From Rhodobacterales bacterium CG2_30_65_12 (lineage in GTDB: Bacteria; Pseudomonadota; Alphaproteobacteria; Rhodobacterales; Rhodobacteraceae), in contig MNZL01000150.1 of assembly GCA_001873585.1 (NCBI GenBank), positions 1 through 35,387 of the forward strand: a stretch of 35,387 nucleotides of DNA. Reading direction: 5' to 3'. Both the position numbers and the translations under genes were made by a program. Of the stretch, positions 2,319-35,037 are shown piece by piece (position 1 is the first letter of the stretch; each line of letters starts with the position of its first letter). Below the pieces are notes generated by a model. The model did not search any database. It was not told the origin of the DNA and saw only the letters and a program-made list of their open reading frames with translations.

Positions 2319-2537
2319 AAATGGTTCGGCGTTTTTTCGAGCGATGGCAATACCAGGTCCTCATACCTCGCGCGGCGGCGTTTTGTGACGATCCACCCCA
2401 GCCCGCGCGCACCCTGCGCGCGAATGTCCGCTGGACTGGTAGAATTTCACGCGCTAAACAACGCCGCAATGGGCTTCCGTAAACCGTGGCCCGAGGTGTG
2501 TTGGCCGCCCGCGCGGCCTCAGAAGGGAGAAGTTCTC

Positions 2538-3101
2538 GTGTCACACGCAGACGACCACAAGGGAACCCGCCGGGATTTCCTGTATTACGCCACCGGTGGG
2601 GCCGGTGTCGTGGTGACTGGTGCCGCAGTCTGGCCGCTCGTCAACCAGATGAACCCCTCGGCCGACGTGCGGGCGATGAGCTCGATCCGGGTCGACATTT
2701 CCGAGATCGCTGAAGGAAGCCAGCTCACCGTGAAATGGCGCGGCAAGCCGGTGTTCATTCGCTACCGCAGTGCGGAAGACATCGAGTTTGCGCGCGCCGA
2801 CGCACTGGCCGATTTGCCCGACACAAACGCGCGCAATGCCAACATCGACGCGGCCGCCGATGCCGCCGACGAAAACCGCACCCTCGACGCCGAGGGTAAA
2901 TGGCTGGTGATGATGGGGGTTTGCACCCATCTCGGCTGTGTGCCGCTGGGCAACGGTGCCGGTGATTACCACGGCTGGTATTGCCCCTGCCACGGCTCGC
3001 ACTACGATGCCGCCGGCCGCATCCGCAAAGGCCCCGCACCCGAGAACCTGCCGATTCCGATCGCCGAGTTTCTCGACGAAACCACGATCAAGCTCGGTTA
3101 A
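2538..3101 (+). CDS. petA: Ubiquinol-cytochrome c reductase, Rieske iron-sulfur subunit
   Basis: GTG start after agaagggagaagttctc; Tat-like [20 protein letters not shown] and CPCHGSHYD cluster motifs. Confidence 0.95.
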
Positions 3102-3113
3102 GGGAGGAAATAC

Positions 3114-4439
3114 ATGTCTGGTATTCCGCACGACCACTACGAGCCGAAGGGTCGGTTTGCGACCTGGCTGCACGACCGCCTCCCCGTTGTGGGGCTGGCC
3201 TATGACGTATTGATGATCCCCACCCCGAAAAACCTCAACTGGTGGTGGATCTGGGGCATCGTTCTCGCCTTCACGCTGGTTCTCCAGATCGTGACGGGCA
3301 TCATCCTGGCGATGCATTACACCCCACATGTCGACCTTGCCTTCGCCTCCGTCGAGCACATCATGCGCGACGTGAACGGTGGCCACATGCTGCGCTACCT
3401 GCATGCCAATGGCGCATCGCTGTTCTTTGTCGCGGTCTACATCCACATCTTTCGCGGCCTCTACTACGGCTCCTACAAGAGCCCGCGCGAGGTGACCTGG
3501 ATCATCGGCATGCTGATCTATCTGGCGATGATGGCCACCGGCTTCCTCGGCTATGTGCTGCCCTGGGGGCAGATGTCGTTCTGGGGCGCCACGGTGATCA
3601 CCGGCCTGTTTGGCGCGATCCCGTTCATCGGCCCCGATATCCAGACCTGGCTGCTCGGCGGCCCGGCGGTGGACAATGCCGCACTGAACCGGTTCTTTTC
3701 GCTGCACTATCTGCTGCCCTTCGTGATTGCTGCTCTGGTGGCCGTGCACATCTGGGCTTTCCACACCACCGGCAACAACAACCCGACCGGCGTTGACGTG
3801 CGGCGCAGCTCCAAGCAAGACGCCGAGAAAGACACCCTGCCGTTCTGGCCTTACTTCGTGATCAAGGATTTCTTTGCGCTGGCGGTCGTGCTCCTGGTGT
3901 TCTTCGCCATTGTCGGTTTCATGCCGAACTACCTCGGCCACCCCGACAACTATATCGAGGCCAACCCGCTCTCGACGCCCGCGCACATCGTGCCGGAATG
4001 GTACTTCCTGCCGTTCTACGCGATCCTGCGCGCGTTCACGGCGGATGTCTGGGCGGTGCAAGCCGCGAGCTTCATCACCGGCGGGATCGTCGACGCCAAG
4101 TTCTTCGGCGTGCTGGCGATGTTCGGCTCCATCCTGGTGATGGCCCTCACCCCGTGGCTCGACACGTCGAAAACCCGCTCCGGCTCCTACCGCCCGATCT
4201 TCAAGTTCTGGTTCTGGCTGCTGGCGATCGACTTCGTTGTTCTGATGTGGGTTGGCGCGCAATCGACCGTGTTCCCGTATGACTGGATATCGCTCATCGC
4301 CTCGACCTATTGGTTCGCCTACTTCCTCGTGATCCTGCCGCTGCTTGGCTGGACCGAGAAGGCGAAAACGCCGCCGGCGACCATCGAGGACGACTTCAAC
4401 CACCACTACCCCGAAGCCTCCGGCTCGGCGGCTGAGTGA
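3114..4439 (+). CDS. petB: Cytochrome b of the bc1 complex
   Basis: 441 aa multi-pass protein; [23 protein letters not shown] and [14 protein letters not shown]. Confidence 0.97.
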
Positions 4440-4461
4440 GAGTAGAGAAAGGATCAAGAGA

Positions 4462-5280
4462 ATGATCAGGCAACTCACCCTCACCGCGATCACCGCGATG
4501 GCGCTGGGCCTTGGTGCCGGCGCGGCGCTGGCCTCGGGCGGCGAAGGCAACTATGGCCATGTCGAGGACCGTCAGTTCTCGTTTGAAGGCCCGTTCGGCA
4601 AGTATGACCAGATGCAGCTTCAGCGCGGTCTGAAGGTCTACACCGAAGTCTGCGCCGCCTGCCACGGGCTGCGCTATGTGCCGATCCGCGCGCTGGCCGA
4701 TCCCGGTGGCCCGGGCTACACCGAGGACGAGGTGCGCGCCTATGCCGCCGAGAACTTCACGGTGTTCGACCCCGAGCTTGATGACGACCGCGACGCAACG
4801 CCGGCGGACCACTTCCCGAGGGTAACCGGCGACGGCATGGGCCCGGATCTCTCGCTGGTGGCGAAGGGTCGTGCCGGCTTCCACGGGCCCTACGGCACCG
4901 GGATGAACCAGTTGTTCAAGGGGATTGGCGGCGCGGAATACATCACCGCCTACCTGCTCGGTTTCACCGGCGAAGAAAACGAGGTGGCTGGCCAGTATCT
5001 CTACGAGAACATGGCGTTCCCCACCGGCTGGGTGCAGATGCCGCCGCAGCTGGAGGATGATCTCATCGAATACGATGATGGCACCCCGGCGACGGCGGAG
5101 CAGATGGCCGAAGACGTATCCGCCTTCCTGATGTGGGCGGCGGAGCCAAAGATGATGGCCCGCAAGCAGGCCGGCGCCGTTGCCGTGCTGCTGCTGGTGG
5201 TGCTCTCGTCGCTGCTATACCTCGCCAACAAAAAGCTTTGGTATCCGGTCAAGCACGGCGGCAAAGAGGCCAATCTCTGA
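4462..5280 (+). CDS. petC: Cytochrome c1
   Basis: Start [20 protein letters not shown] (signal peptide) inside ORF 4345..5280; CAACHG heme motif; C-terminal TM anchor. Confidence 0.95.
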
Positions 5281-5303
5281 GCCCCCACCGACAAGATCCA
5301 AAC

Positions 5304-5331
5304 AAAAGGGCGCCCCTCGCGGCGCCCTTTT
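5304..5331. terminator. Bidirectional Rho-independent terminator between petC and thiQ
   Basis: aaaagggcgcccctcgcggcgcccttttt: GC stem with A/T tracts on both sides, between convergent genes. Confidence 0.85.
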
Positions 5332-6027
5332 TCATGTCCCAAGATAGGCGGTGAGCGCCGGCGGCGGATGGGCGAAAATCTCGGCTGTGCCAACAGGCGG
5401 CTGCGCCTTGCCACCTTCCACAAAAATCACCTGCCCCGCGATCCGCTTTGCGTCGTCGGGATCGTGGCTGACGATCAGCAGCGTTGCCCCGGTCTCGCCG
5501 GCGATCTCGACAACCAGATCGAGCATTTCGGCCCGCAGCGCCGGGCCGAGCGCACCGAACGGCTCATCGAGCAGCATCAGCGGCCTTTGCCGGAGCAGCG
5601 CGCGGGCCAGCGCCACCCGCGCCGCCTGCCCGCCCGAGAGCTGTCCGGGCTTGCGCGCGCCCAGATCCGCCAGCCCCACGCGCGCCAGAGCCGCCTTCAC
5701 CTGCGCCCGCTGCTCGGCGTTCAGCTTCAGATCCGGCCGGAGGCCAAGCCCAACGTTCTGCGAAGCAGTGAGATGGGGAAACAGGTTATTGTCCTGAAAA
5801 AGGATCGACACCGGGCGCTCCGCCGGCGCTTTCCTGGCGAGATCTTCGCCGTCCCACAGCACCCGCCCGGCGTCGGGCATCTGAAAGCCGGCGATCGCGG
5901 CAAGCAGGGTCGACTTTCCCGCTCCCGACGGGCCGATGAGCGCCACGCGCGCGCCGGTGGGCACGGAGAGGTTTGCCGTGAGCCGCCAATCGCCCCAGCG
6001 CATCTCAAGGTGGTCAAGCGTCAGCAT
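5332..6027 (-). CDS. thiQ: Thiamine ABC transporter, ATP-binding protein
   Basis: Walker A GPSGAGKST, signature LSGGQAARVALARAL, Walker B LMLLDEPF; adjacent to thiP/thiB and the TPP riboswitch. Confidence 0.93.
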   Translation of the reverse strand: MLTLDHLEMRWGDWRLTANLSVPTGARVALIGPSGAGKSTLLAAIAGFQMPDAGRVLWDGEDLARKAPAERPVSILFQDNNLFPHLTASQNVGLGLRPDLKLNAEQRAQVKAALARVGLADLGARKPGQLSGGQAARVALARALLRQRPLMLLDEPFGALGPALRAEMLDLVVEIAGETGATLLIVSHDPDDAKRIAGQVIFVEGGKAQPPVGTAEIFAHPPPALTAYLGT

Positions 6028-7576
6028 TCACACGGCCCCCACGGTCAAACACCCAGAAGATCAAGAGCGAACTCGCCAGCAGGATAAGCGCGGCGCCAGC
6101 GGCAGCGTCCATCTTGTAGGCAGCCATCAGGCGGTAGAGCGCAAGCGGCAGGGTGCCGCCTTCGGGGCTGGCAAACATGGCAATCACCCCAAGGTCGCCC
6201 ATCGAGAGCGCGGCGGCAAGCCCGGTGGCAAAGCCGAGCGGACGGCGCAAGCGTGGTAGCCAGAGGCGAGTGAGCCGCGCCGCGCCGGTCATGCCGAGGC
6301 TGTCGGCGAGCGGCCCGTAATCGGCCTCGATTGCGGTGAGCGCCGGCACGAGCGCACGCAGCGCGAAGGGTAGCGCCATCACGGCGTTAACGAGCGCAGT
6401 CACAGGCAACGCGAGCGCCGTCGGGTCGGCGACCGGAAAGAGCAGGATAAACAGCCCGGTGCCAATCACCAGCGGCGAGGCGGCGATGGTGAGGGTTCCG
6501 ATCATCTCCACCAGCCGCGCCCGACCGCGGACAATCCAGGCGGAGAGCGGCAAGGCGAGCGCCAGGGTGAGCGCCGCCGAGATCAGCGCCACCGCCAGCG
6601 AGCGCAGGGTCGCGGCAAAAATCGAGGGCGGCAGACCCAGAAGCGCGGGAACGCCGTCAACTGCGATCATCACCAGCGGCAAAACGAGAAAAAGCGTGGC
6701 AACGCCGATCAAGGCGGCATCCTGCGCCACCAGCAGCGGGCGGGCGGCATCCCAGCGCGTCACCGCGCGATCAAGCCCGGCACCCATCTCGGTGGGCAGG
6801 CTGAGGCGCAGCGCAACCAGCGCGGCAGCCCCGGCAATCGCCACCTGCACCAGCGCCAGAAGCGCGGCCTTGCCGAGATTGAAATCGAAGCGGAAGGCCT
6901 GGTAGATTGCCAGCTCCACCGTCGTGGCGCGCGGGCCCCCGCCAAGCGCGAGGGCGACCGCGAAGGAGGTGAGGCAGAGCAAGAAGATCACGAGGAACGC
7001 GCCGGGGACAACTTGCCGCAGCATCGGCCGCTCAAGAGTGCGCGCTACGTCAGCCGTGCCGAAGTCAAGCGAGGCGGCGAGGCGGAAGCGCTCGGCGGGA
7101 ATGGCGAGCCAGCCTTGCAGGATCAGCCGGGTGGCGAGCGGCAAGTTGAAAAACACGTGCGCCAGCACCACGCCCTGAAAGCCGTAGATCGAAACCGGCT
7201 CTGATCCCGCCCAAATCAGCATTTGACTGACAATTCCGCTGCGGCCAAACACGGCAATCAGCCCGAGCACGGCCACGATCACCGGCAAGATGAAAGGCGC
7301 TCCGAGGAGAGTGATCAGCAGCCCCCTCCCTGGAAATCGGCGGCGGGCAAGCGCGCGCGCCACCGGCACGGCGAGGGCCACCGAAAGCGTGGCGGAGAGC
7401 ACCGCCTGCAGGAGTGTGAAGCGCACCGCCGCCCAATCAGCCGGGCCAAGCCCAGCGCCAAACTCGGCGCGCAAAGCCACCGCGCCGAGCGTGCCCAGCG
7501 TGAGCGCGAGAACGACGGCAAGCGCCCCCGCCCCCGCCACCCGCGCCGGGCTCAGTTGGCCGACGCCGCGAGCCAT
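6014..7576 (-). CDS. thiP: Thiamine ABC transporter permease
   Basis: 520 aa fused permease with about 12 hydrophobic segments; overlaps thiQ and thiB. Confidence 0.92.
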   Translation of the reverse strand: MARGVGQLSPARVAGAGALAVVLALTLGTLGAVALRAEFGAGLGPADWAAVRFTLLQAVLSATLSVALAVPVARALARRRFPGRGLLITLLGAPFILPVIVAVLGLIAVFGRSGIVSQMLIWAGSEPVSIYGFQGVVLAHVFFNLPLATRLILQGWLAIPAERFRLAASLDFGTADVARTLERPMLRQVVPGAFLVIFLLCLTSFAVALALGGGPRATTVELAIYQAFRFDFNLGKAALLALVQVAIAGAAALVALRLSLPTEMGAGLDRAVTRWDAARPLLVAQDAALIGVATLFLVLPLVMIAVDGVPALLGLPPSIFAATLRSLAVALISAALTLALALPLSAWIVRGRARLVEMIGTLTIAASPLVIGTGLFILLFPVADPTALALPVTALVNAVMALPFALRALVPALTAIEADYGPLADSLGMTGAARLTRLWLPRLRRPLGFATGLAAALSMGDLGVIAMFASPEGGTLPLALYRLMAAYKMDAAAGAALILLASSLLIFWVFDRGGRVNADA

Positions 7577-34783: not shown

Positions 34784-34870
34784 GCCCAGGTGGCGGAATT
34801 GGTAGACGCGCTGGTTTCAGGTACCAGTGATCGAAAGGTCGTGGAGGTTCGAGTCCTCTCCTGGGCACCA
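34784..34870 (+). tRNA. tRNA-Leu(CAG)
   Basis: Acceptor gcccagg/cctgggc, anticodon stem ctggt-ttCAGgt-accag, long variable arm, T arm gaggTTCGAGTcctc, CCA encoded. Confidence 0.96.
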
Positions 34871-34901: not shown

Positions 34902-34930
34902 AGAAAACATGGACTTTTCGTCTGTTTTCT
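34902..34930. repeat. Inverted repeat agaaaaca...tgttttct downstream of tRNA-Leu
   Basis: 8-bp arms plus inner gac-ttttc-gtc. Confidence 0.55.
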
Positions 34931-34959
34931 GTCTACCATTCTGAACATGGATGAACATG

Positions 34960-35037
34960 GTACCCCACCCGATACCCCACCAAAATGGGGTACGAAACTG
35001 GGGTATCATACGGCAAATGCAGGGATGATACCCCAGT
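34960..35037. repeat. Alternating TACCCCA / TGGGGTA inverted-repeat array at the integrase start
   Basis: GTACCCCA 34960, GATACCCCA 34971, TGGGGTAC 34986, TGGGGTATC 34999, GATACCCCA 35027; includes a perfect 13-bp inverted repeat actggggtatcat (34997-35009) / atgataccccagt (35025-35037). Confidence 0.85.

Follow-up and report, generated by a model that had tools for sequence, protein, structure and literature searches.

The window analysed here, a 35,387-nt stretch from Rhodobacterales bacterium CG2_30_65_12, derives from a draft genome of 1.94 Mb in 178 contigs that is 74% complete. At its right-hand end a tRNA-Leu(CAG) gene is followed, 165 bp from its 3' end, by the start of int, a gene for a P4-type tyrosine integrase that is cut by the contig end, and an array of short repeats occupies the space between the two (Table 1). 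The N-terminal part encoded by the truncated gene matches PF13356 (Arm-DNA-bind_3) with an E value of 2.1e-23. Its nearest full-length homologue, the integrase of the Aliiruegeria locus L033, is 89% identical and comprises the arm, central and catalytic domains (PF13356, PF22022 and PF00589, respectively). Alignment with the ATG or GTG codons of full-length relatives confirmed that int begins at GTG 35036, as the first-pass annotation had assumed. The remaining part of int and the far end of the island (attR and P arm) were searched for in the source draft assembly and were not found. Rfam matched the tRNA alone in this region; a microRNA match far under its threshold was set aside as chance. 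Scans of the region for a σ70 consensus and for terminators yielded none, and the int promoter was not located.

The heptamer TACCCCA occurs in five exact copies, designated A to E, and nowhere else in the window, against a mean of 1.05 copies in shuffled versions of the same 35 kb, none of which (0/100) reached five. The copies start 12, 13, 13 and 30 bp apart, and the full word is approximately YGATACCCCA. The count given in the first-pass annotation is thus exact, although the alternating orientation that it described gives way to the order + + - - +. Its pairing of the first copy with the third, and of the second with the fourth, is true but trivial, since any copy on the plus strand complements any copy on the minus strand. 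The perfect 13-bp inverted repeat that it recognized in the last two copies does exist: the arms lie at 34997-35009 and 35025-35037, flank a 15-nt loop, and the right one reaches the GTG start codon.

Table 1. Features of the tRNA-Leu/int region, in window coordinates
Feature	Position	Strand	Remark
tRNA-Leu(CAG)	34784..34870	+	ARAGORN, Rfam; presumed att core (attL side) at its 3' end
10-bp-period direct repeat CTGAACATGG/ATGAACATGG	34941..34960	+	candidate recombination directionality factor site
predicted arm-type site A (TACCCCA)	34961..34967	+	at -75 in close relatives
predicted arm-type site B	34973..34979	+	at -63/-64 in many relatives
predicted arm-type site C, first of tandem pair C/D	34986..34992	-	counterpart of the P4 tandem arm repeats
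predicted arm-type site D, second of tandem pair	34999..35005	-	C/D 13 bp apart
predicted arm-type site E, inverted copy directly before the int start codon	35029..35035	+	at -7; P4 arm repeat 3915-3926 likewise ends at the int start
int, P4-type tyrosine integrase, N-terminal 117 codons	35036..35387	+	PF13356 match; stops at the contig end

Alignment of the regions upstream of related integrases, which the first-pass annotation had proposed as a check, revealed that the repeats are conserved in homologous islands. The int start was placed in about 105 homologous loci. The array recurs at the same distances to the tRNA and to the start codon next to integrases of down to about 40% identity; close relatives keep all five copies (at -75, -63, -49, -36 and -7), while farther ones retain C, D and E, often together with one upstream copy, and use other words. 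These variant words (TACCCCCA, TACCCACA, GGCCCCCA, TACCAACA, TGCCATCA and TACTCACA) change in concert across all copies of a locus. A search for the C-D-E triple that favoured no one of its three pairings, with a threshold of at least 19 of 24, detected it in 54 of the 105 loci, compared with 0 of 315 shuffled controls. In 47 of 53 registered loci the distance from the beginning of site E to the start codon is 6-11 bp, and in about 40 loci the 3' end of a tRNA gene, differing from locus to locus, lies 159-167 bp upstream of int. We take these fixed distances between tRNA, array and int to be the rigid geometry of an attachment site.

If the repeats are integrase sites, the same word is expected at the island's far end, beyond the core, and it was found there in relatives. 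Complete islands carry at that end a repeat of the 3' end of their tRNA, which is the same as in the window or another one, and 15 relatives, L033/L112 (the closest) among them, have a tandem pair of the element's own word (P1 and P2) 56-79 bp ahead of this repeat. The two copies are 12-13 bp apart and usually lie about 75-79 bp before the tRNA-end repeat, the distance being about 56 bp in three elements; for L115 and L118 it was read from their sequences, as the tabulated values reflect the search window. The pair, seen in Aliiruegeria, Mameliella, Pseudooceanicola and others, lies downstream of int at a distance of 6 to 58 kb and thus outside the int mRNA and its leader. Across the 15 elements the distal word agrees with the element's own P' word at 7.63 of 8 positions, compared with 6.18 of 8 for the words of other elements, and 0 of 20,000 permutations gave as high a value. 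Furthermore, whichever two of P1, P2, C, D and E are compared (ten pairings), agreement at the two core positions that vary most is 0.87-1.00 within a locus and 0.36-0.55 between loci. The far end of the window island is absent from the assembly; we predict that TGGGGTA occurs there as a tandem pair, followed after about 77 bp by a CTCTCCTGG(G)CACCA repeat.

The same arrangement is annotated in phage P4, whose integrase belongs to the same family. The GenBank record (NC_001609) lists 'attP arm sequence repeat' features at 3915-3926, 3942-3953, 3954-3965, 4151-4162 and 4163-4174 around a core at 4078-4097, and one further arm repeat at 3621-3632 inside int, which starts at 3926 on the minus strand. 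P4 thus shares with the window array an inverted arm repeat that runs up to the int start codon, a tandem pair of 12-bp repeats and a core at the 3' terminus of a tRNA-Leu gene, and shares with the relatives studied here the distal tandem pair. It differs in its word, TTGGGGGCA instead of TGGGGTA, and in that no opposing pair equivalent to A/B is annotated. A second counterpart is ICEMlSymR7A, in which five IntS arm-type sites with the consensus TGKTGGTATC are all required for efficient integration (PMC11963761). That consensus is one of the variant words found among our relatives, although not the one used in the window; the sites and their regulation were tested experimentally in ICEMlSymR7A, whereas ours are recognized from sequence. 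A text search of the literature for TGGGGTA together with integrase returned nothing relevant.

At the window locus, a PF13356 integrase gene adjoins the array, a tandem pair and an inverted copy lead up to its start, and the presumed core lies at the tRNA 3' end at the conserved distance. We therefore propose, with a probability of roughly 0.93, that the array represents the arm-type integrase sites on the P' arm of a P4-type island's attachment site at the 3' end of tRNA-Leu, and most likely also an autorepression operator. Of the two options raised by the first-pass annotation, the second, arm-type DNA sites, is thus strongly supported by the array layout, by the presence of the same word on both arms in relatives and by the P4 annotation. 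The array is an element of a known kind, in which the opposing pair A/B on the P' arm is particular to this group.

By analogy with these systems, the reader of the sites would be Int, acting through its arm domain, for which related structures have been solved (3ju0, 3jtz/3rmp). In the mechanism that we propose, each TACCCCA would serve as a binding site for the integrase encoded directly behind the array, which would contact it through its N-terminal arm domain. The tandem pair C/D and the inverted copy E at the start codon would reproduce the P4 layout, the opposing copies A and B, of which one or two are added in close relatives of the window element, would extend it, and a further tandem pair would lie on the P arm, at the opposite end of the island. 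Int would bridge arm sites and core during both integration and excision.

Since the sites fill the interval between the tRNA and int, Int bound there would most likely also lower transcription of its own gene, and we infer that the sites overlap the int promoter. The autorepression suggested by the first-pass annotation is accordingly probable by analogy. Repression of int by P4 Int was reportedly described by Piazzolla in 2006. In PAI I536, IntI represses its own promoter (PMC7286903), and in ICEMlSymR7A, IntS represses intS (PMC11963761); the situation is similar in the E. coli element KplE1, where IntS represses itself and repression is also exerted via the recombination directionality factor (RDF) TorI (PMC2951348). 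The intS/attL region of KplE1 and the intI region of PAI I536 resemble the window in their tRNA-int order, and in both the integrase promoter is situated within or near attL. Nevertheless, the KplE1 arm motif contains TAAA and is an unrelated word, and the work on PAI I536 centres on IHF. By eye, a -10 hexamer had been noticed at the C-D junction of some relatives (CATAAT in P4, TATAAT in L099); this candidate was dropped, as the distal P1-P2 junctions look similar.

The first option of the first-pass annotation was an RNA switch or hairpin in the int leader that hides the start codon, formed either by copies D and E or by crossing, pseudoknot-like and mutually exclusive pairings of the first with the third and the second with the fourth copy. 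The D-E hairpin is indeed stable (-23.5 kcal/mol), and its stem covaries in close relatives, with 19 cells changed on both sides and none of 500 shuffles as high. However, the minimum-energy fold consists of two plain hairpins, B-C and D-E together, with no crossing pairs, so that two mutually exclusive folds did not emerge, and the relatives provide no convincing covariation for the crossing 1-3/2-4 helices.

The D-E covariation is itself accounted for by DNA binding, because two copies of a binding word that drifts will necessarily covary. In the core, the direct copies C-D and P1-P2, which are unpairable, share their word as closely as the inverted copies D-E do, P1-P2 doing so outside the mRNA; compensatory change beyond that of the unpairable copies was not detected in the paired arms. 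Mismatches between D and E display no clear bias towards G-U: in the core, 5 would be tolerated as G-U pairs and 11 would not, and for the left flank the corresponding numbers are 21 and 15. Conservation does not extend to the outer stem pairs, which run into the start codon; of 15 distinct sequences, 12 lack the outermost pair. In L034 and L037 the stem is broken. An observation in favour of RNA pairing is that the agreement between D and E at positions -3, -1 and +7 of the flanks exceeds that shown by C. This agreement, at -3 to -1, is partly common to P2, and the most plausible reading of YGA is therefore a portion of the full recognition word, seen where no neighbouring tandem copy crowds the site. 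Taken together, the folding, the covariation counts, the wobble bias and the comparison with unpairable and distal copies led us to reject the RNA pseudoknot or switch, which we consider very unlikely. A dual role, in which D and E would serve as DNA arm sites and also form an int mRNA hairpin lowering translation if transcription starts upstream of D, is in our view very improbable; if true, a single sequence would control the amount of Int at two stages.

RDFs recognize repeats in att DNA and are able to regulate int, as exemplified by TorI of KplE1 (PMC2951348) and by RdfS (PMC11963761), but it is extremely improbable that the repeats serve an RDF, as the first-pass annotation had also entertained, or another repressor instead of Int. 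The boxes of RDFs are direct repeats with a spacing of about one turn, whereas the window word is partly inverted and stands on both arms in relatives; the equivalent repeats of P4 and ICEMlSymR7A are Int arm sites; and an RDF would be better matched by a separate repeat with a 10-bp period. This last repeat, which lies directly upstream of site A, has 9 of 10 matches at period 10, the best among periods 8-14, and is a candidate RDF site; PMC7498355 describes RDF sites as direct repeats one helix turn apart. In L018, L022, L017 and L027, at tRNA-Thr and tRNA-Phe genes, repeated TTGTCCGATG-like boxes about 10 bp apart occur between the core and the P' arm and resemble the TorI boxes of KplE1 (GTTCG, GATCG, GTCCG). 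No good IHF site was identified in the attL of the window, where the best candidate has 3 mismatches; among 13 attR arms of relatives, exact IHF sites were found in two and one-mismatch sites in three, matches that are suggestive only.

Under the proposed arm-site reading, both ends of P4-type islands would follow a simple rule, with a tandem pair and an inverted copy at the int-start end and, at the far end, a tandem pair whose distance to the repeated tRNA end is about 77 bp, or about 56 bp in some elements. As the word varies in step within each element, such sites form a natural data set from which to learn how DNA is read by the integrase arm domain. For the window itself, the start of an unassembled island at tRNA-Leu would be marked and a false RNA-switch candidate removed.

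Several minor features of the related islands were also observed. The closest complete island, that of L112 (Aliiruegeria), measures about 6 kb from tRNA to attR; a 744-aa RelA_SpoT-domain protein is encoded in or adjoining it (4103-6337, +), with a serine recombinase gene nearby (2443-3927, +), and PADLOC run on L112 named neither. In the attR of L112, L113, L114, L116, L123, L124, L129, L134 and L135 one G is missing before CACCA (..CCTGGGCACCA in the tRNA, ..CCTGG-CACCA in attR). These are all nine of the nine elements from the fuzzy search whose tRNA ends in GGCACCA, and the gap is common to tRNA-Leu, tRNA-Phe and tRNA-Thr targets and to different arm words, while L126 and L140, with tRNA-Glu or tRNA-Ser ends, display no such gap. 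Judging from these sequences, the crossover must lie 3' of the one-G gap. Moreover, in L123, L124 and L129 the right arm of the island supplies a strong hairpin followed by a T run just 3' of the tRNA (for instance AAAAGCCCGCGAAAGCGGGCTTTTTTG in L123), as if restoring the terminator of the tRNA gene; the window has a weaker GAAAACA/TGTTTTC pair at about 34903-34928.
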